Both the position numbers and the translations under genes were made by a program. A DNA stretch of 64,000 nt from Prolixibacteraceae bacterium (GTDB taxonomy: Bacteria; Bacteroidota; Bacteroidia; Bacteroidales; Prolixibacteraceae): NCBI GenBank assembly GCA_019459485.1, contig JAIBEZ010000024.1, positions 1 to 64,000 on the forward strand. Direction: 5' to 3'. The stretch's first letter is position 1, and each line of letters begins with the position of its first letter. This document shows, one piece after another, positions 3,319 to 63,675 of this stretch. A model generated the notes under the pieces. It was not told the origin of the DNA, ran no database searches, and saw nothing but the letters and a program-made list of their open reading frames with translations.

Positions 3319-4194
3319 TTATCCGATTGTATGACTTTCAATTAACTCACGCATCAGCTGATCCATATCTTCGTCAGACGAAGTGATCACTTTTGCTCCT
3401 TTCGACTGAAGAACAACGTTATCAACCTTTTTCACCTTGGTAGGCGAACCGGTCAGGCCCAATTCGTTCATGTCAGCTTCAATATTCTGAACGGTCCATT
3501 CCTTGATGGTCAGGTATGGGCGGTCGCTATACAGGTGCAAATAATCGTCGTTTGCTTCCTGCATTTCGGAAATTGTTTTGGCGTGTTTGTATTTCATGAT
3601 CAATTTGGCGTTGCGCGCGCGGCAATCGGGAGCCGAACTGTTCACGGTTACCACCAATGGCATGGGGCATTTCACCACTTCAACACCACGTTCGAGGCGG
3701 CGTTTAACGGTTACCTTGCCTTTTTCGATGGCCTGAATTTCTTCGGCATACGTGATTTGCGGAATTCCCAATTTTTCGGCAACCTGAGGACCAACCTGGG
3801 CAGTATCTCCATCGATAGCCTGACGACCTGCAATGATGATATCGTAATTTCCATGTTTTTTCAGGGTTTGCGCAATGGCGTACGATGTGGCCAATGTGTC
3901 CGATCCGGCAAAAGCGCGGTCAGTTAATAAAATACCATCGTCGGCACCGCGGAACAATCCTTCGCGAATAATTTCGGCAGCGCGGCCTGGTCCCATGGTC
4001 AATAATGTAATGGTTGTTCCCGGAAATTGGTCTTTAATCCGAAGCGCTTGTTCCAGAGCGTTCAAATCTTCAGGATTAAAAATAGCCGGGAGAGCTGCCC
4101 TATTGACAGTTCCATCGGCTTTCATGGCATCTTTGCCAACATTCCGGGTATCCGGAACCTGCTTGGCAAGAACAATAATTTTGTAACCTTTCAT
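3319..4194 (-). CDS. etfB: Electron transfer flavoprotein beta subunit
   Basis: EtfB is the partner of EtfA. The protein is 291 residues with the N-terminal IIVLAKQVPDT start typical of the family and the signature region AGRQAIDGDTAQVGP (about residues 122-136), which contacts the nucleotide. It is the first gene of the operon. Its start codon abuts an 87-nt leader that is nearly identical to the purA leader, so translation or transcription is probably regulated there (see 4195-4281). A match to the phylum's promoter lies further upstream at 4326-4357. Confidence 0.95.
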   Translation of the reverse strand: MKGYKIIVLAKQVPDTRNVGKDAMKADGTVNRAALPAIFNPEDLNALEQALRIKDQFPGTTITLLTMGPGRAAEIIREGLFRGADDGILLTDRAFAGSDTLATSYAIAQTLKKHGNYDIIIAGRQAIDGDTAQVGPQVAEKLGIPQITYAEEIQAIEKGKVTVKRRLERGVEVVKCPMPLVVTVNSSAPDCRARNAKLIMKYKHAKTISEMQEANDDYLHLYSDRPYLTIKEWTVQNIEADMNELGLTGSPTKVKKVDNVVLQSKGAKVITSSDEDMDQLMRELIESHTIG

Positions 4195-4281
4195 GTGTTT
4201 ATAATTTGTTTTTTAATTGCCATATGGAACTCCCAAATAATCATCCTCCTGCGTGAGAAAGATTTTCTCATGGTCGTTTCA
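4195..4281 (-). promoter_or_regulatory. Conserved structured 5' leader of etfB, twin of the purA leader
   Basis: Read on the minus strand from 4281 to the base before the ATG, this 87-nt leader begins TGAAACGA and CCATGAG. It then forms a hairpin TGAGAAA/TTTCTCA, carries CAGGAGGATGA, and ends with a 38-nt segment (minus strand, 4232-4195) that starts GAGTTCCATATGGCAATT. That segment differs from the segment before purA at only 2 of 38 positions. The hairpin is kept in both copies although the bases in the stem differ (AAA/TTT here, GGA/TCC in purA), which is compensatory change. I do not recognise it as a known riboswitch class. Confidence 0.6.
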
Positions 4282-4614
4282 TCAGTAATTATCTGAGTTA
4301 ATTAAGTTCAATTTTTAAAAGTTAGCAAATATAGAAATTCAACCCTAAGAAATCAAGCAACTTTCAGGAGCCACACGGCACGGTTAAAAGTTGAATACCG
4401 CCATAGATGGGCACAACGGCGCAATTGAAGAAGGTTTGTACGCTGAAGCACTGACAGGCAAAGCAATTAAAACAATCAACCTCATTTTTCAAAAAATCCT
4501 TTTTGCAAAATCGGGTTGTTTATTTAAAATGAATTTAAGTAAGGAAGTGCTCCCATACAGAACGAACTACATAAAAAGCTCATTTTTGGAGAAAGCCAGG
4601 ATAGCAATAACAAC
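4282..4614. other. Intergenic region between etfB and the AraC-type gene
   Basis: This holds the etf promoter (4326-4357) and otherwise no supported gene. A 110-codon open frame (4391-4723, plus strand) overlaps the 3' end of the opposite regulator gene. It has no recognisable domain and I regard it as chance or at most a remnant. Confidence 0.5.
4326..4357 (-). promoter_or_regulatory. Promoter of the etfBA operon
   Basis: The minus strand has CTTG, a 20-nt spacer and TATATTTG. The second box matches TAnnTTTG exactly and the first is one base off TTTG. It would give a 5' untranslated region of about 120 nt that includes the whole conserved leader. Confidence 0.5.
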
Positions 4615-29336: not shown

Positions 29337-29408
29337 AGCCAATGATGAGAATTGAACTCATGACCTCTTCCTTACCAAGGAAGCGCTCTACCCCTGAGCT
29401 ACACCGGC
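29337..29408 (-). tRNA. tRNA-Thr (GGT anticodon)
   Basis: The 72-nt cloverleaf on the minus strand has acceptor GCCGGTG/CATTGGC, D arm GCTCAGGGGTAGAGC and anticodon loop TTGGTAA, giving GGT. The T arm has loop TTCAATT. CCA is not encoded. It is the last tRNA before tuf. Confidence 0.93.
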
Positions 29409-29421
29409 AACTTTTATTTTG

Positions 29422-29494
29422 AGCGGGAGACGAGATTCAAACTCGCGACCCTTAGCTTGGAAGGCTAATGCTCTATCGACTGAGCTACTCCCGC
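29422..29494 (-). tRNA. tRNA-Gly (TCC anticodon)
   Basis: The 73-nt cloverleaf on the minus strand has acceptor GCGGGAG/CTCCCGC, anticodon stem TTAGC/GCTAA with loop CTTCCAA (TCC), and T loop TTTGAAT. Third in the cluster. Confidence 0.93.
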
Positions 29495-29575
29495 ATAAGG
29501 AAGATTAGAATTTTGAATCTTGAATGCTAGAGTAATTCTAATATTCGCCATTTTGAGATTCCAATATTCCGGTTG

Positions 29576-29658
29576 TGGGGAGAGCAGGATTCGAACCTAC
29601 GAAGGCGTACGCCAGCAGAGTTACAGTCTGCCCCAGTTGGCCACTTTGGTATCTCCCC
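29576..29658 (-). tRNA. tRNA-Tyr (GTA anticodon)
   Basis: 83-nt class II tRNA on the minus strand: acceptor GGGGAGA/TCTCCCC, anticodon loop CTGTAAC (GTA), a long variable arm with CGTACGCC, and T loop TTCGAAT. The long variable arm fits tRNA-Tyr. Confidence 0.93.
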
Positions 29659-29689
29659 AATCAAAATCTTCAGAACTTTTCATTAAATG

Positions 29690-29763
29690 AGCCGAATCAC
29701 AGATTCGAACTGTGGACCCCGAGATTACAAATCACGTGCTCTGGCCAACTGAGCTAATTCGGC
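29690..29763 (-). tRNA. tRNA-Thr (TGT anticodon)
   Basis: The 74-nt cloverleaf on the minus strand has acceptor GCCGAAT/ATTCGGC, D arm GCTCAGTTGGCCAGAGC, anticodon loop TTTGTAA (TGT) and T loop TTCGAAT. First tRNA of the cluster. Confidence 0.93.
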
Positions 29764-45045: not shown

Positions 45046-48000
45046 TTACCTTTTAACAATCTTAACAGTTTTGGCAATTACATTATCTGACGTATGAAGA
45101 GAGATAAAGTAAATACCGCTGCGAAGTTCATTCAATTGAATTCTATTAGCAGGATTAACAACTTGTTTAACAACCTGACCGGCGATGTTTGTAACAACAA
45201 CCTTAGATAGTTTAGAAGAAGCATCAATGTTAACAAAATCCACAAATGGGTTTGGATAAACCTTGAATAGAGAAACATTTACAGAAGGATCAATGCTTGT
45301 TAAGAAATGATCACCTGTTTTAAATGTCCAGGCACTGCCATCGCTTACACCAGCAAATTTATTACCAGCGACATCTTGGATAGCTAAACCATCAACTTTT
45401 ACATAGTAGTTGGTATTTTTATCAAGACCGTTCTGGGTTGGAGCATAAGTTACTGTAACATCCTTACCGCTAATCATTGCAGCAGTAATAGGAATTTCAA
45501 GTACAGGAGTTGTAGTAAGAACTTTGTAAACTGTAAGTTTACCACCCTCGCCAACAGCTACGTCTTCATTGAAAGTCATCTTAAATGTAGGATGATTATC
45601 AGTAGTTGTTTCATTAAGTGGAGTCCAGGTTACCAATTGAGGAGCAGTAAAGTCACCAATTGTATAAGTCAAAGTCTGACCAGCAAATACATTGGCATTA
45701 GGAGAGGTATCCTTAATTCCATCAGTAAGAACGATTGTTACCAAAGTTTGTTCTAAACCTGAAACAGTTAAAGTATATTCATCACCTAATCCTGAAACAT
45801 CAGTTAAAGTACCACCGGTTACAGTCACACCACCTAATACACCACTCACAGGTTCGCTGAATTTTAATCCAACAGTGAATACTGCTTCAACAGGTGTTGC
45901 AGGAGGAGTTACTACAACAGTTGGAGCAACATGATCACCTACTTTATAAGTAAATGTTGTAGTTTCCAACGCGTTATTAGCAGCATCTTTAATTGTATTT
46001 GCAACAACAATACTTAGTTCAGCCAAATCTTCACCAGTTAAAGTAACAGTGAATGATGTACCTGTTCCGGGAGTAAATGTACCGCCAGTGATGTCTTCAG
46101 CAGCAACAGTTACAGTACGGTTGAATGTTAATACTACATCAAACTCATTGTCCTGATTATTTCCTGACGCAGGAACTGCAGTTACAGTAAGAGGAGCAAC
46201 TTCAAGAGATTTTGCAACCATACAACCGTGAGCATCATAAACAGTAACAACTGTAGCAGGAGCATGCAATTCAACAACCTGGAATTCATTACCATCAATA
46301 GGTAATTTCACTGAAGCATCTCCAACCACATAGGTGTAAGGAGAAATACCACCGGTTATTGTCATTGAAGCACTCAACTGATCTTCAGCCTGAGTAACTA
46401 CAACTTCAAGAGGATGTTGAGTAGAAACAAAAGACTTATAGAAGTTAGTATTACAACCCTTATCATCTTTAACTTCGAAATAATAGAAGTTTTGTTCTTC
46501 AATACTATTTGCAAAGATCAGATTATTAATAGCGATCTCGTTTGTGAAAGCTACCCATGGACCAAAATCCACAGCAGTGTTTCTACGGTAACGAATTGAG
46601 AATGTACGTCCAGCTTCACCTGTAGCTTTAACTATTACAGATGCAGTTGCATCACCATAGCAAGTAGTTTCATGTAAAGTAGCAGTAACACCAACAGGTT
46701 CGTTTAGAATTTCTTCATCACTGGCGATACAACCGTTGCCATCTTTCACTTCAATTTTCCAGCTTGATCCAACCTGAACAATGAATGATGGAATTGGCTG
46801 CCATGCAGTATGAACAACACCGTTTTTAGTCAATTGGTACAAATAGCTGGTAGGAGCTGATCCATCCCAATTTGTTCCACCAGTAGCAACAGCTTCAATT
46901 ACTCCGTTTACATCACCAGGACATAAGAAAGCACCATCAGCCTTAACCAAATTTACAGTGAGTGCAGGATTCTGCCATACAACCACAGTTTTAGTAGTTG
47001 AACAACCATTCTTATCAGTCACCTTAACTGTAAAGGTTGGGTGAGTATGATCAACAATAGCGGCATGTTTTGTTTCTGATGCAGGAACACCTGTAAGGGT
47101 ATAAACACCATCAACAGGAGTTAAGCCTGAATAAGGAAGATTTACAGCGTTTCCTGCTGCATCAGTACCAGAAATATTAAATGTATATGGAGCGCCGGCA
47201 TCAGAAATAATACCACTTACCATAACTTTTCCAGTTGCACCACCAAAGCAAAGAACTTCAGTAGATGTTGGATCATTGAATTTTACAGTTTGTGGCTCTC
47301 TGATCTGTACACGCCATTCATCAATAGGATTAGCAATTGTACCTTCACCACCTACAATACATCCGTTGGCATCCATTACCCAAATAATCCAGGTAGCAGC
47401 AGTTGCCTGATCGAATACATTAGTAGTAACCCATTCTGTTGAATTAGGATCTGGAGCAAGTACGTGTGCTGGTAAAATAGACTTTTTAACAGCATATTTA
47501 TAAGGGCCAACACCACCAACAGCAGTAATGGTAAATTTACCATCGTTACCACCGAAACAAGTTACATCATTATTAAATGCAACTGAAGCAGTAAGGAATG
47601 TACCAGGTTGTTGAACTTCCCAAGAAGCTACTTTGTGCCAAACGTAATCAACTGGAACAGGGTTTGGAACCACTTCAGCACCTGTAGGTAATAAACATCC
47701 TTCAGCATCCCTGATCCAAACACTGTAAATAGCATGTGGCAAATTGCTGAATATAGCAACTTTACCTGTAGTTCTCTTCCAGGCACCTGGAGTTTCCAAA
47801 AGAATTGGATTAGCAGTTGTAGTCAACTGTACATCGTATTCCTCACCTGTTAAAGTGTTTACAAATGGAGTACCTCCACTAATAACTGTTACTTTAAATT
47901 CACCATCATTTCCACCTCTGCAGCTTACTCTTTTAGTAACTTCACCTCTGTATGCATACTCGGCAGGGCCGGCAACTACAAAAGTTAACTGATAAGTACA

Positions 48001-51000
48001 AGCAACAGTTGGATAAGTATAACTTACAATACCACCATTAGCATATGCTGGTGTATTGGTAGCTTTTACATATACAGTATATGTTCCGGCAGTAAGACCA
48101 GAGAAAATACCAGTCGTATTAACCGGAGCTGTGAAGTCTGATTTTAATGAGTACAAATAGGTATGAGTGAACGCTGGAGTTGTTGTCTCAAAACCGCCTG
48201 TAGCGTTAATGTCAACTTCACCATCGATTCCGCTGACACATGAAACAGGAGTATTTACAGCAACAACAGGAGTGATTACTTTCGGTGCCAAGACAGTCAC
48301 AGTAACTGGCGTAGCCAAACAACCGTTAACGTCTTTCACAAAGAATGTATAAACACCAGGTTCAGTAGCTACATAAGGTTTAGTTGAACTGCCTGCAGAA
48401 AAAGCAAACCAGTCGCTAGCCTTGATGTCAGTTCCCAAGCCGTTTACTGAAGCATTTACAGCCATCCAGTATGCACCTGTACCGCCGGCAGCAGTAACAG
48501 AAACAACACCATCGTTAGAAGAAACACAAGTAAAGTGTGTAACAGCTACATTGGTAATTGTCAATACAGCAGGATTAACTACAGTAACAGTTGATGTTTT
48601 GTACAACGGACAGTTGGTAGCATCTGTTACAGTTACATAGTAAGATCCGGCTACCAATCCTGTAAATACACCTGTTGTATTTGGAGTCGTAGTCACAACC
48701 AGTACATCATCCTTATACAATTTATAAGTATAAAGACCAGTTCCGTCGAATTCAGGTTTTCCACCAGTTACACCAGTTACAGTAATTGTACCGTCATTGG
48801 CGTTGTTACAGGTGATATTAGTTTTTACAACAGGATTGGTTTCTTCATTCACTGCGATTGGTTTGTAACCATCAACAATGAAAGGACCTGCGAAGATCGA
48901 ATTGTCGGTTACACAAACATCGCGAAGTACCACATAGTAGGTTCCTCTTAAAGCCTGAATAACTTGTTTGCCAATTCTCAACGAGGCTGGAGCAGCTGTA
49001 ATATTATAGTCTTCAACAGGCTGGAAATCTCCGGCAGTCAAATTACTGATAGCGATAGCATTATTTACAATCGCATAATAAGGAGTTCCGTTACCACCAA
49101 GCGTATTAATGGTGATAGTACCATCAAACTCACCTGAACAAGTAGCATTGGTAGTTACTACACTTGTAAGTTCCAGTGCTGGATTTTGTGTAAATACAAC
49201 AGTTTTAATAGTTGAAGTACATCCATACTCATCGCGTGCACCAATATAGTAAGTACCTGCTCCGAAAGTTCTGAAATTAAGTTCTGTCGCAGCATTGTTG
49301 TCATCTGGAGCGGGAACACCGTTTATTGACTCAGGAACAAATACTGAACCTGTTGTGAAAACAGTTGTAGCAGAATTTGAAACGAAGTATTGAATCGTAC
49401 GATCTTCTTCCCATGTTAATCCGGTAATAGTTATACCTTTTGTCGAGGTATTTCCATAACATTCAATTAAACCGGCAGCAGCAGTAAATGCACTTGGAGT
49501 TAAAAAGTCAATAGTTACAATGTCAGAAGTAATACAACCTTTTGCGTCTTTAACGTAAACAGTAGTTGCACCTTCAGGTAAAGCCAAAACGTTGTTGGCA
49601 AACCATGTAGCATTGTTGGTTGAGTACATATACGGAGCTACGCCACCAACAGCGTTAACTGTAATACGTCCGTCAGTTCCGCCTGAACAGGTTGGAGCCA
49701 AAGGATCTGCAAATGAATAAATATCCAATGCTGCAGGCACATTAACTGTAACAGTCTTGGTGAGAACACAACCATTGGCATCCATAACAGCTACTACAAC
49801 GTCTGTATCAACGGTAAGTGGTGTTAATAAAAGTGTATTTGTTGCGGTATATGCGCCCCCGTTAAATGAATAAGTATAAGGAGCGACACCACCTGCACCC
49901 TGTGCAGTCAATGTGAAATCACCGTTAAAACATGCAACTTCCACTGCTTCAACATTGTCAGCATTGGTAGTAAATGTAAGTGCGCCCGGAGTTTGAATTG
50001 GTAAAATATTACCGCTTCCATCAGGATTAGAATATGGTTTAACGCAACCGTTGGCATCTCTTACCCAAACGCTGTAATAAGCTGCAACTAAATTGCCTTT
50101 AGTTCCGGGAGCGGTTACCCAACCTGTTGTTGGCATTTCAGTTCCGGATACGGCTACCACAAATTCGTAAGGACCAGTGCCTCCAGTTGGAGTATTAACA
50201 GTTACTGAACCCGTTGCACCACCGGCGCAAGTAGCATCAGTGTATGTTGGTGCAAATACAATGGCAGCTGGCGAAGTTATAATAACATCTTTTGTAATAG
50301 TACATCCGTTAATGTCTTTAACACTAACAGTATAAGTTTTAGCAGCAAGTTCATCAAATGTATATGAACCTTCTTCCAGAGCAAACCAATGAATACCATC
50401 GATAGAAACAGTATAATCAGTTCCTGTTCCACCAGCCACACCTGAAACAGTAATTGATCCGTCGGTGTAACCATTACAAGTATTGTTTACAGCAGTTGCA
50501 GTATAAGTAATCTGTGCAGTAACAGCTTCAATAGTAACTTGTTGCCATACAGCATCAGTTCTTAAACTAACACATCCATTGGCATCATTAACAGCTACAT
50601 AATAAGTACCTGCAGGTTTTAATACCTGAAAGTTAGAAAACTTGTAAGGAGCAAATGCAATATTATTTAGTTCTTTTGTTTCTAAATCTCCATTAACTGT
50701 TGGCCAATTGGCAGCAGGTACAACCCAATAAGTGTAAGGAGCAGTTCCTCCGGAAATACCAAATTGAATTTCGCCCTGACCACCGAAGCACAAAGGATTT
50801 TCAGTAGTAACGCTATTTACAGTCAATGGACTTGGAGCAGTTACCGGAATGGTAAACAAATGTGAATAACATCCGCTTGCATCTTCGATACGAACAGTAT
50901 TTACAGAAGGAGCAAAAGCATCAGCGATGCCGGTTGTAGAAGCAGTAGTACTACCGTTAAAGTAATACTTCATTCCAACAGCAGTTGGGCTTGTAATTGT

Positions 51001-51630
51001 AATTGTAGCTTTTCCGCCGTCACATGAAGCAGGAACCACTGTGTAAGAGAAGTTCTCAGCAGTATAACTAACCGGAACATTCATTGTGCTGTGATTAAAA
51101 CGGGTGGTTTCAACCTGGTAACTACCACCAACTCCAAAGTCAGATACATAGTAGTAGGTAGAATTTACTACATCCCATGTTAAAGGAGAATCGAACAGGT
51201 TATCTCCGGTATTATTCGGAAAATTTACAACCTTAAATTTCGCGTCAAATAGTTTTACACCGCCGGGAATATTGTTACCAATGGTAACTGCCGTGGTGTT
51301 CGACCATGTAAACTGAACAATCCCTAAAACAGGATCAGGAATAACTGTAGCAGTCACTCCACTTAATAACAATGCACTCGCATTGGCAACAGCATCAAAC
51401 TCAAATTCCGATTTGTCGAAATTTAATGTCAGTTTGAAACTCTTCATGTTGATGAAATCCTTAACGGAAATCATCGAGGTATAACTATTGGTTTTGTTAT
51501 AACATTGGTCAACAGGACTTGCAAAAAGTTCTACCGTTGATTGTGTCTCCTGGGCATACAGCCCGGAAGAGAACAACATCATAACGCTCAATAGTAAAAA
51601 CCCAAAAAGCTGTGTAAATGATTTTCTCAT
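45046..51630 (-). CDS. Giant SprB-repeat surface protein with T9SS sorting domain
   Basis: 2194 residues. A signal peptide (to about 26, LFSSGLYAQ) is followed by a cohesin-like domain (about 28-165). Then about 16 SprB-type repeats run to about residue 1780, each starting with a Cys-x-Gly-x-x-(D/T)-G pattern and a GG-x-x-PY-x-Y strand. Three bacterial Ig-like domains follow (about 1800-2110, the last SbsA-like, WTPLNETTTDN to WTFKTGD). The end is a T9SS type A sorting domain (FKVYPNPFVDFVNIDA to the Lys-Arg C-terminus). It is expected to be exported by the T9SS and attached at the cell surface, as an adhesin or motility filament component. Confidence 0.88.
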   Translation of the reverse strand: MRKSFTQLFGFLLLSVMMLFSSGLYAQETQSTVELFASPVDQCYNKTNSYTSMISVKDFINMKSFKLTLNFDKSEFEFDAVANASALLLSGVTATVIPDPVLGIVQFTWSNTTAVTIGNNIPGGVKLFDAKFKVVNFPNNTGDNLFDSPLTWDVVNSTYYYVSDFGVGGSYQVETTRFNHSTMNVPVSYTAENFSYTVVPASCDGGKATITITSPTAVGMKYYFNGSTTASTTGIADAFAPSVNTVRIEDASGCYSHLFTIPVTAPSPLTVNSVTTENPLCFGGQGEIQFGISGGTAPYTYWVVPAANWPTVNGDLETKELNNIAFAPYKFSNFQVLKPAGTYYVAVNDANGCVSLRTDAVWQQVTIEAVTAQITYTATAVNNTCNGYTDGSITVSGVAGGTGTDYTVSIDGIHWFALEEGSYTFDELAAKTYTVSVKDINGCTITKDVIITSPAAIVFAPTYTDATCAGGATGSVTVNTPTGGTGPYEFVVAVSGTEMPTTGWVTAPGTKGNLVAAYYSVWVRDANGCVKPYSNPDGSGNILPIQTPGALTFTTNADNVEAVEVACFNGDFTLTAQGAGGVAPYTYSFNGGAYTATNTLLLTPLTVDTDVVVAVMDANGCVLTKTVTVNVPAALDIYSFADPLAPTCSGGTDGRITVNAVGGVAPYMYSTNNATWFANNVLALPEGATTVYVKDAKGCITSDIVTIDFLTPSAFTAAAGLIECYGNTSTKGITITGLTWEEDRTIQYFVSNSATTVFTTGSVFVPESINGVPAPDDNNAATELNFRTFGAGTYYIGARDEYGCTSTIKTVVFTQNPALELTSVVTTNATCSGEFDGTITINTLGGNGTPYYAIVNNAIAISNLTAGDFQPVEDYNITAAPASLRIGKQVIQALRGTYYVVLRDVCVTDNSIFAGPFIVDGYKPIAVNEETNPVVKTNITCNNANDGTITVTGVTGGKPEFDGTGLYTYKLYKDDVLVVTTTPNTTGVFTGLVAGSYYVTVTDATNCPLYKTSTVTVVNPAVLTITNVAVTHFTCVSSNDGVVSVTAAGGTGAYWMAVNASVNGLGTDIKASDWFAFSAGSSTKPYVATEPGVYTFFVKDVNGCLATPVTVTVLAPKVITPVVAVNTPVSCVSGIDGEVDINATGGFETTTPAFTHTYLYSLKSDFTAPVNTTGIFSGLTAGTYTVYVKATNTPAYANGGIVSYTYPTVACTYQLTFVVAGPAEYAYRGEVTKRVSCRGGNDGEFKVTVISGGTPFVNTLTGEEYDVQLTTTANPILLETPGAWKRTTGKVAIFSNLPHAIYSVWIRDAEGCLLPTGAEVVPNPVPVDYVWHKVASWEVQQPGTFLTASVAFNNDVTCFGGNDGKFTITAVGGVGPYKYAVKKSILPAHVLAPDPNSTEWVTTNVFDQATAATWIIWVMDANGCIVGGEGTIANPIDEWRVQIREPQTVKFNDPTSTEVLCFGGATGKVMVSGIISDAGAPYTFNISGTDAAGNAVNLPYSGLTPVDGVYTLTGVPASETKHAAIVDHTHPTFTVKVTDKNGCSTTKTVVVWQNPALTVNLVKADGAFLCPGDVNGVIEAVATGGTNWDGSAPTSYLYQLTKNGVVHTAWQPIPSFIVQVGSSWKIEVKDGNGCIASDEEILNEPVGVTATLHETTCYGDATASVIVKATGEAGRTFSIRYRRNTAVDFGPWVAFTNEIAINNLIFANSIEEQNFYYFEVKDDKGCNTNFYKSFVSTQHPLEVVVTQAEDQLSASMTITGGISPYTYVVGDASVKLPIDGNEFQVVELHAPATVVTVYDAHGCMVAKSLEVAPLTVTAVPASGNNQDNEFDVVLTFNRTVTVAAEDITGGTFTPGTGTSFTVTLTGEDLAELSIVVANTIKDAANNALETTTFTYKVGDHVAPTVVVTPPATPVEAVFTVGLKFSEPVSGVLGGVTVTGGTLTDVSGLGDEYTLTVSGLEQTLVTIVLTDGIKDTSPNANVFAGQTLTYTIGDFTAPQLVTWTPLNETTTDNHPTFKMTFNEDVAVGEGGKLTVYKVLTTTPVLEIPITAAMISGKDVTVTYAPTQNGLDKNTNYYVKVDGLAIQDVAGNKFAGVSDGSAWTFKTGDHFLTSIDPSVNVSLFKVYPNPFVDFVNIDASSKLSKVVVTNIAGQVVKQVVNPANRIQLNELRSGIYFISLHTSDNVIAKTVKIVKR

Positions 51631-62173: not shown

Positions 62174-62310
62174 AGCAGCTGTTTCTATTCAACACATATA
62201 CTTCAAACAAAACAATAAAGATCCAGTTATTAACACTCCGTTTTAGCCAATCATCTCCAAAATAATTGTAATTTTATCGCCCGTAAAATCAATCTTATAC
62301 CGTGATAAAA

Positions 62311-62400
62311 TGAAACGAGCCATGAGGATATATCCTCATACAGGAGCATGACTTTCCATGGCGAGTTCCATCTGGCAATTAAAAAACAAATTATAAACAG
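62311..62400 (+). promoter_or_regulatory. Conserved structured 5' leader of purA, twin of the etfB leader
   Basis: 90 nt that end at the base before the purA ATG. It has TGAAACGA, then an 18-nt perfect palindrome ATGAGGATATATCCTCAT (62322-62339) that folds as a hairpin, then CAGGAGCATGA. A 38-nt segment (62363-62400) is identical to the etfB leader at 36 positions. The element is oriented the same way relative to the gene in both cases. No purine, SAM or TPP riboswitch consensus was recognised. Confidence 0.6.
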
Positions 62401-63675
62401 ATGAAAGTAGATGTATTATTAGGACTCCAGTGGGGAGACGAAGGAAAAGGCAAAATTGTTGACGTACTGACTCCCAAATACAATGTAATTTCGAGGTTTC
62501 AGGGTGGCCCAAATGCCGGTCACACGCTCGAAATAAACAACTTCAAACAAGTACTTCACACCATCCCTTCAGGTATTTTCCACGACAATAAAATGAATGT
62601 GATAGGAAACGGTGTTGTAATTGATCCTATTACTTTCGAAAAAGAAATTGAATCGATACGGAAACACAATGTTGACCTAAAAAAAACCTTGTATATTTCA
62701 AAAAAGGCACATTTGATCCTTCCCACCCACCGGTTGTTGGATGCTGCTTCAGAAGAAGCCAAAGGTGCAACCAAAATCGGATCAACATTAAAAGGGATCG
62801 GACCAACTTACCGCGACAAGATTGGTCGTGAAGGTTTAAGAGTTGGCGATTTATTCGAGAATTTTACTGAAAAATATACTTCAAGAGTTCAGGCACACAA
62901 AGATTTACTCGACAATTATTATCATTACGATTATGCTGCGCAACTTGCAGTGCTTGAAGAAGAATGGATGAGGGGAATTGAAGTGCTGAAAGGTTTTATG
63001 ATTGTTGATACCGAACACCTGATAAACGACAGCCTTGCTGAAAACAAGTCAGTTTTGGCTGAAGGTGCACAGGGAACCATGCTCGATATCGACTTCGGTT
63101 CGTACCCATTTGTAACCTCATCGAGCACCATTTGTGCCGGAGCCTGCACAGGCCTTGGAATTGCCCCCAACAAAATCGGAAACGTATATGGTATTTTCAA
63201 AGCATACTGCACGCGCGTTGGAATGGGACCTTTCCCAACTGAATTGTTTGACATTGACGGACAGAACATGCGCGATGTTGGCCGCGAATACGGTTCAACT
63301 ACCGGTCGCCCGCGCCGATGCGGATGGCTTGACCTGGTTGCCTTGAAGTATTCAATCATGCTGAACGGAGTAACCGAACTGATCATGATGAAAGCCGATG
63401 TGATGGATAAATTTGAAACCATCAAAATTTGTGTCGCTTATGAAATCAATGGAGAAGAAACCGAAAAATTCCCGTTTGAACTAAATGAAAACGTAAAACC
63501 TGTTTACGTTGCATTACCGGGATGGGAGGCTGATCTGACTCAGTTAACCAGTCAGGATGAATTTCCGGAGGAATTTAACAACTACATAAATTTCATCGAA
63601 GAACAAGTTGGGGTGCCAATCACCATCGCATCGGTTGGACCAAACAGGGCACAGACGATCCATTTGGGAGAATAA
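62401..63675 (+). CDS. purA: Adenylosuccinate synthetase
   Basis: 424 residues. GDEGKGK (12-18) is the GTP-binding loop, and NAGHT, GSTLKGIGPTYRDK, EGAQGTMLDIDFGSYPFVTSS and TTGRPRRCGWLD are all present. It converts IMP and aspartate to adenylosuccinate in AMP synthesis. Its start codon touches the conserved leader at 62311-62400, and a terminator follows. Confidence 0.98.
   Translation: MKVDVLLGLQWGDEGKGKIVDVLTPKYNVISRFQGGPNAGHTLEINNFKQVLHTIPSGIFHDNKMNVIGNGVVIDPITFEKEIESIRKHNVDLKKTLYISKKAHLILPTHRLLDAASEEAKGATKIGSTLKGIGPTYRDKIGREGLRVGDLFENFTEKYTSRVQAHKDLLDNYYHYDYAAQLAVLEEEWMRGIEVLKGFMIVDTEHLINDSLAENKSVLAEGAQGTMLDIDFGSYPFVTSSSTICAGACTGLGIAPNKIGNVYGIFKAYCTRVGMGPFPTELFDIDGQNMRDVGREYGSTTGRPRRCGWLDLVALKYSIMLNGVTELIMMKADVMDKFETIKICVAYEINGEETEKFPFELNENVKPVYVALPGWEADLTQLTSQDEFPEEFNNYINFIEEQVGVPITIASVGPNRAQTIHLGE

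Follow-up and report, generated by a model that had tools for sequence, protein, structure and literature searches.

A structured, dispersed element of about 90 nucleotides at the start codons of purA, etfB and other genes of Bacteroidia: a probable non-autonomous mobile element replacing the translation-initiation region

The window analysed here, a stretch of 64,000 nucleotides from a Prolixibacteraceae bacterium, carries two genes whose start codons are directly preceded by closely similar non-coding sequences: a gene on the plus strand, presumed to be purA from the initial annotation and from the start of the protein, and a gene on the minus strand, presumed to be etfB from the same annotation. 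Elsewhere in the window a very large open reading frame of 2194 amino acids occupies 45046-51630 on the minus strand, and four tRNA genes are clustered on the minus strand at 29337-29763. The features at the two start codons are as follows, where “type 1” denotes the form of the element found in both places and P2 its conserved helix.

62310..62400, plus strand: type-1 element occupying the purA start codon, with a length of 91 nt when measured from old ATG to new ATG (covariance model match 62310-62406, 104 bits)
62310..62316, plus strand: 5' junction ATGAAAC, made up of the former start codon with the first bases after it; GTT of the guide pairs with the final AAC, and CAT can pair with the ATG
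62319..62324, plus strand: 5' strand of helix P2, GCCATG, the first three pairs being the conserved ones
62325..62356, plus strand: variable apical hairpin GAGGATATATCCTC and the loop after it, beginning ACAGGAGCATGA; the sequence varies among copies
62357..62362, plus strand: 3' strand of helix P2, CATGGC
62365..62374, plus strand: guide GTTCCATCTG, complementary to both junctions, with one mismatch to the 5' junction
62375..62397, plus strand: A-rich linker GCAATTAAAAAACAAATTATAAA, conserved in the alignment and presumed to be the new translation-initiation region
62398..62403, plus strand: 3' junction, CAG and the new start codon ATG, which pairs with CATCTG of the guide
62401..63675, plus strand: host gene purA, adenylosuccinate synthase, ORF of 424 aa
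4195..4282, minus strand: type-1 element at the etfB start codon, 88 nt from 4282 to 4195 (model match 4189-4282, 99.5 bits)
4221..4230, minus strand: guide GTTCCATATG of the etfB copy
4192..4197, minus strand: 3' junction of the etfB copy, CAC and ATG, with one mismatch to the guide
3319..4194, minus strand: host gene etfB, electron-transfer flavoprotein subunit, ORF of 291 aa

The initial annotation had described these sequences as a shared structured leader, and its description of the alignment is borne out: the two leaders lie where they had been placed and align end to end, both stopping at the ATG. Their final 38 nucleotides differ at exactly two positions, as had been claimed, and these are the variable base of the guide and the base immediately 5' of the ATG, which, as read from the alignment, would pair together as C:G in purA and form an A.C mismatch in etfB. 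The apical stem is also preserved by paired changes in the way that had been reported (GAGGA/TCCTC in purA, GAGAAA/TTTCTC in etfB), and the likeness is far beyond chance, with the purA leader as query retrieving the etfB leader from the whole genome at an E-value of 5.7e-19.

The purA and etfB leaders are two of about 30 dispersed copies of roughly 90 nucleotides in this genome. When the purA leader is used as a query against the 5.5-Mb genome, 46 matches are returned at E <=10, some of which are halves of one copy, and a 23-base core occurs 17 times with at most 3 mismatches while the reversed control occurs 0 times. A covariance model finds 33 matches in the genome at E <=0.01, two of which are copies of a sister element of about 150 nt, referred to here as type 2, which has the same edges as type 1 and a different middle and linker (loci L015, L018, L354-L383 and L415-L434). 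Type 2 gives 31 matches in the genome, some of them partial and with 37 of 80 candidates scored, and it is matched in 16 of the 23 genomes of the genus, the present one included; matches are numerous in the congeners G000, G007 and G009 and absent from G005, G006, G008 and G010. At two places in the genome the type-2 sequences are 98% alike, as is one in genome G007, and this near-identity suggests recent movement. A further hairpin, TCCCGATNNATCGGGA, substitutes for the apical hairpin or sits within the guide in several copies (L005, L013, L017, L019, L024, L089 and others), as if a second small repeat had inserted into the first.

The conserved, covarying fold of the element is real. RNAalifold, applied to 60 copies, recovers the same 12 pairs as the structure drawn by hand, and two-sided changes occur in 45 cells compared to 15 after shuffling, with every slid register failing; the copies used for this comparison were restricted to those whose guide mismatches the 3' edge at no more than one position, a filter that favours pairing and that applies equally to the folding energies, the in-gene check and the counts of ORF frames given below. 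Among 113 copies aligned by the covariance model, which leans the alignment towards the structure, two-sided changes number 115 compared to 31. Compensations can also be recognized by eye, with CCA/TGG and GCA/TGC replacing GCC/GGC, with AAAU/AUU replacing AAAC/GUU, and with GC/GC or AU/AU taking the place of the tandem GA/GA joint in some copies.

The internal guide, GUUCCAUNNG, is 10 nt long and has two complementary sites, the 5' edge AUGAAAC and the 3' edge CNNAUGAA, so that it can pair with the start codon on either side of the element, old or new. In 97 of 106 copies taken from pattern-scan loci with no pairing filter, the guide is complementary to the base that precedes the ATG (3 further copies had no ATGA), compared to a shuffled expectation with a mean of 38 and a maximum of 58 in 10,000 trials. 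Wobble pairs, counted as an indication of the strand that pairs, number 17 for G.U and 10 for A.C, which does not decide between the strands. The triplet upstream of the target agrees with the guide in 8 of 140 cases, which at a shuffled value of 7.7 amounts to no match, and pairing between guide and target is therefore confined to ATGAA. According to folding estimates on the filtered copies, the two guide pairings lie within 2 kcal/mol of each other in 52 of 133 copies and the 5' pairing is the better one in 50 of the 133, and the median unpaired probability computed in silico is 0.05 for the new start codon compared to 0.34 for the old. In the 16 type-2 copies for which the guide could be parsed, CATGAG occurs with the edge CGA in 9 (read on the coding strand, this combination produces tandem G.A), and CATCCG occurs with CGG in 5. 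Three type-2 copies, registered by hand, have the guide CACGAG and the edge CGAGTG, in which a GTG start faces CAC; the copies with GTG instead of ATG at the gene-side edge, and CAC instead of CAT in the guide, are L151, L369 and L380.

The element has a marked preference for start codons. The position of the copies was evaluated over 147 distinct copies, most of which were found via the well-kept 3' half and in which duplicates are counted once, the earlier sets of 155 and 153 copies having held a few copies twice; some copies from named carriers and some from the genus derive from the same genomes, and identical copies are likewise counted once. An ORF of at least 60 codons is opened by 121 of these copies; of the others, 7 lead into another copy, 1 lies at a contig edge and 18 belong to none of these classes. 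The background was obtained from 904 kb by a simple ORF count, in which ATGAA occurs at 220 starts, 857 other intergenic sites and 2510 in-gene sites, the heuristic being crude and the locus edges inflating the intergenic class; the bias towards starts exceeds what would be expected from the avoidance of genes alone. No copy that splits a gene in the sense orientation was found among the filtered copies tested. Of two possible in-gene copies read by eye, one (L072) lies after the end of the upstream frame and the other (L029) precedes a start resembling a secretion signal, while a copy flagged as antisense (L064) lies after the end of a gene. In two sets of copies from other families, 18 of 20 and 17 of 20 stand at gene starts, these 40 distant copies being high-scoring matches and not a random draw, and two of the first set, L395 and L396, being identical in sequence. 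Type 2 is less strict, with 14 of 20 copies in the present genome at gene starts. The host genes are unrelated, and both intergenic and tandem copies exist. One gene, lpxB, carries a start-codon element in two distant families (L445, L008), apparently as independent insertions.

Seven carrier genes (lpxB, rluB, the DEAD-box gene, purA, murG, sixA and etfB) were compared with their counterparts in the genus, and for most of them sites can be found at which the element is absent and the gene ATG directly follows the left flank. The left flank is identical at 40 of 40 bases for lpxB (L274), rluB (L217) and the DEAD-box gene (L237), each with the gene ATG directly next to it, and the best empty loci of purA (L247) and murG (L266) retain 37 and 38 of 40 bases, respectively. 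The comparison is weaker for sixA, with 17 of 40 bases matching without gaps owing to a one-base shift, and for etfB the best empty flank matches at 30 to 32 of 40. When 70 counterpart loci are searched with the model, it detects clear copies, besides those of the present genome, at murG in G007, purA in G004, and rluB and the DEAD-box gene in G014, together with a weak match (E 0.053; L222 945-1061) that ends at the purA ATG of the congener G013 and is probably a decayed copy. The murG insertion is common to the present genome and G007 and has identical private changes in the linker, but its apical hairpin has been replaced by a hairpin CCCGATNNATCGGG. In the 16 etfB counterpart loci of congeners there is no model match, a pattern match at L253 being a false positive. 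Conservation before linked orthologues, as expected of a cis-regulatory RNA, is thus not what is observed, with one clear and one probably decayed copy at purA in 20 other genomes, and none in the 16 etfB loci.

The edges of the element are well defined. The 3' edge is ATGAA in 146 of the 147 distinct copies, and AT stands directly before the 5' GAAAC motif in 140 of the 147, so that ATGAA is present at both edges; the lpxB site reads ATGAAG, which limits the shared part to ATGAA. Tandem copies join exactly at ATGAA, at ATGAAACGA. Two features that characterize MITEs are present, namely a direct repeat of the target (ATGAA) on both sides and the existence of empty sites, and terminal inverted repeats are not found at the ends ATGAAACGAG and CNNATGAA. 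The pattern of presence and absence across related genomes suggests that the element is mobile.

A covariance-model search, which the initial annotation had proposed, returns matches spread over Bacteroidia and located mainly at gene starts. At E <=0.001 the element is detected in 84 of the 395 Bacteroidia genomes sampled, representing 42 of 197 genera. In a sample drawn from the whole phylum, likewise of 395 genomes, 35 have a match at E <=0.0001, and five of these lie outside Bacteroidia. At most 10 candidates were scored per genome in these scans, some genomes belong to both samples, and the E-values are approximate. Named carriers among the matches listed, which cover at least 111 stretches, include Prolixibacteraceae, Labilibaculum, Labilibacter, Geofilum, Carboxylicivirga and Plebeiobacterium. 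A comparison of the window with Rfam at the gathering score detects the four tRNAs only, and relaxed thresholds give the leaders matches at chance level, in agreement with the earlier statement that the leader belongs to no recognized class. With the purA copy as query, plasmid records and phage records produce 0 and 0 matches, while a search of viral contigs with two exact patterns finds one contig (L414), on which phage-like genes can be recognized by eye. The titles and opening lines of abstracts in the literature report no such element, which argues weakly for novelty. The motif table in PMC2864571 contains other Bacteroidetes motifs, of which two, Bacteroides-2 and GUCCY-hairpin, have no Rfam number there. 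Judged by Rfam and by these titles and abstracts, the element is widespread, structured, mobile and apparently undescribed.

The interpretation of the initial annotation, that purA and etfB have a shared leader that is likely a cis-regulatory RNA, must accordingly be divided. The conserved covarying fold, the common orientation and the termination at start codons all stand, while a leader dedicated to the two genes is not supported, since most counterparts of the two genes in the same genus have no element, several loci show an exact empty site and the host genes are unrelated. Scatter without regard to start codons had been named as the mark of a dispersed repeat; the element is a dispersed repeat, but its copies are locked to start codons. 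The most probable reading, to which a probability of about 0.8 is assigned, is that the element is a non-autonomous, site-specific mobile element, about 90 nt long in type 1 and about 150 nt in type 2, which substitutes its own translation-initiation region for that of the gene it enters. It might in addition regulate its host genes.

Several other readings must be weighed against this one. The element could represent a true cis-regulatory RNA family, riboswitch-like or protein-binding, which has spread as a regulon and whose fold alternately hides the old and the new start codon, and the structure, the covariation and the lock to start codons would all be accounted for, as would the near-equal energies of the two guide pairings (less than 2 kcal/mol apart in 52 of the 133 filtered copies) and the retention of the same insertion in related genomes (murG in L005 and L263; L398 and L408). 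This reading is nevertheless improbable given that the genes are unrelated, that counterparts in the same genus mostly have no element, and that some copies are tandem or intergenic. A small upstream ORF coupled to the gene through the ATGA overlap would explain why, in the filtered set, 85 of 153 copies have an ATG-started frame that stays open into the TGA of ATGA, compared to 17 and 13 for the other frames, but many copies have no such ORF and the total lengths divide as 72, 42 and 39 by their remainder modulo 3, with no single frame held, which makes such an ORF very improbable. A self-splicing or RNA-guided element, intron-like or of the OMEGA/HEARO kind, is more improbable still: the guide does pair with both edges in the manner of intron guides with exons, and HEARO elements integrate next to ATGA, but the filtered copies tested include none that interrupts a gene in the sense orientation, there is no Rfam match, and known self-splicing introns are far larger than the element. 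The RRXRR domain of IscB (PF14239) was found in 0 of 61 genomes, with control genomes likewise giving nothing.

The remaining possibility, that the element is REP- or MITE-like and is moved by a transposase of the IS200/IS605 type (Y1/RAYT) acting on the non-coding strand with the target TTCAT, is considered unlikely. When read on the reverse strand, the element begins with an edge, followed by the linker, the guide, the hairpin and the second edge. The guide is thereby placed 5' of the hairpin, a layout comparable to that of IS608, and the conserved A.C mismatch between guide and target becomes a G.T pair. The tandem G.A pairs that interchange with G-C and A-U pairs, in contrast, can form only when the coding strand is read. 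The model, applied to 51 Y1 loci with flanks of about 1.5 kb, drawn from the present genome and 60 relatives together with G011, G018, G005 and G029 and including some loci from which no Y1 frame was recovered, shows no clear copy of the element; it returned one weak match (L353, 27 bits, E 0.0035), which adjoins a marginal Y1-like gene, and two further matches with E-values of 0.84 and 0.95. Pattern matches in L304 and L337 were judged by eye to be due to chance. In two cases (L317 and G000:C54) a Y1 gene and a copy are separated by about 2 kb, and this proximity is taken as chance. Several Y1 genes show other flanking repeats of their own, and the congeners G006, G008, G010, G016 and G021 have a close Y1 gene of the MKIEF type but no type-2 match. 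RAYT genes that start with MKIEF or alike (L287-L302) are often flanked by repeats of their own, CTACTAAGGTT and AATAAGGTT, which are a separate REP family of these genomes.

If the element is mobile in the manner of the preferred reading, an enzyme supplied in trans would recognize its fold and would use the guide to select ATGAA. Insertion at a start codon could be tolerated because the element ends with an A-rich leader and an ATG that would take over the role of the initiation region it has displaced. Within the mRNA, either start codon, old or new, could be covered by the guide, and insertion might thereby tune translation. In F. johnsoniae, adenines at positions -3, -6, -12 and -13 favour initiation, as described in PMC6847099. 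The linker of the element has A at -6, -12 and -13 and C at -3. The C at -3, taken together with the new start codon being mostly paired in silico, is a poor fit with a harmless replacement leader, and insertion may, on this model, both rescue and dampen translation. The searches described above found no mobilizing enzyme, and no autonomous copy was seen in 112 motif matches and 20 further regions, with four odd cases inspected; two copies, L116 at a contig edge and L156, which looks truncated, have no 5' half.

A more far-reaching version of the preferred reading is tentative, and on balance doubtful: the elements would form a phylum-wide mobile class that recognizes translation starts as such, swaps the start region and leaves behind a two-state RNA switch, with an enzyme of an unrecognized kind. 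Recognition would then proceed via the coding-strand fold and the guide, possibly on mRNA or on DNA opened at starts, and every insertion would bring one more gene under the control of this translational switch.

The entry of a mobile element is usually damaging to the gene concerned, and purA, murG and lpxB are generally essential; the element enters such genes at the single position at which a substitute start could maintain their expression. It occurs in about a fifth of the sampled Bacteroidia genomes. The element provides a case for the study of how start codons are chosen, new 5' leaders in a phylum that, according to PMC6847099, has no Shine-Dalgarno starts, and a mobilizing enzyme to be sought.

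Among known systems, the closest general resemblance is to several families of small mobile sequences. REPs have a 2x2 loop in the stem, as the element does, and like REPs it is short, structured, dispersed, non-autonomous and polymorphic between related strains. REP elements and their RAYT transposases involve palindromes tagged with GTAG/CGTC, as described in PMC3733652, and no GTAG or CGTC tag is found at the palindrome end in the alignment of the element, which differs further in its length (about 90-150 nt compared to 20-40), in having ends locked to ATGAA starts and in not standing beside the RAYT genes inspected.

The ends of IS200/IS605 elements combine a short target of fixed sequence, located at the edge, with an internal guide able to pair with both edge sequences. 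A comparable arrangement is seen in the present element, where pairing with the target is confined to ATGAA; it differs in having no transposase gene, and its polarity would fit on the reverse strand only, whereas its tandem G.A pairs favour the coding strand. With the HEARO/OMEGA systems (IscB, IsrB) it has in common a structured RNA within a mobile element beside ATGA, but it is much smaller and has no Rfam match, and the IscB domain was not found in the genomes searched, where the controls were silent too. MITEs, Correia elements and RUP are likewise small, mobile in trans and situated near genes, but the element described here differs from all three in that it has no terminal inverted repeats, in that its edges are direct repeats of ATGAA, and in that it inserts at the start codon itself.
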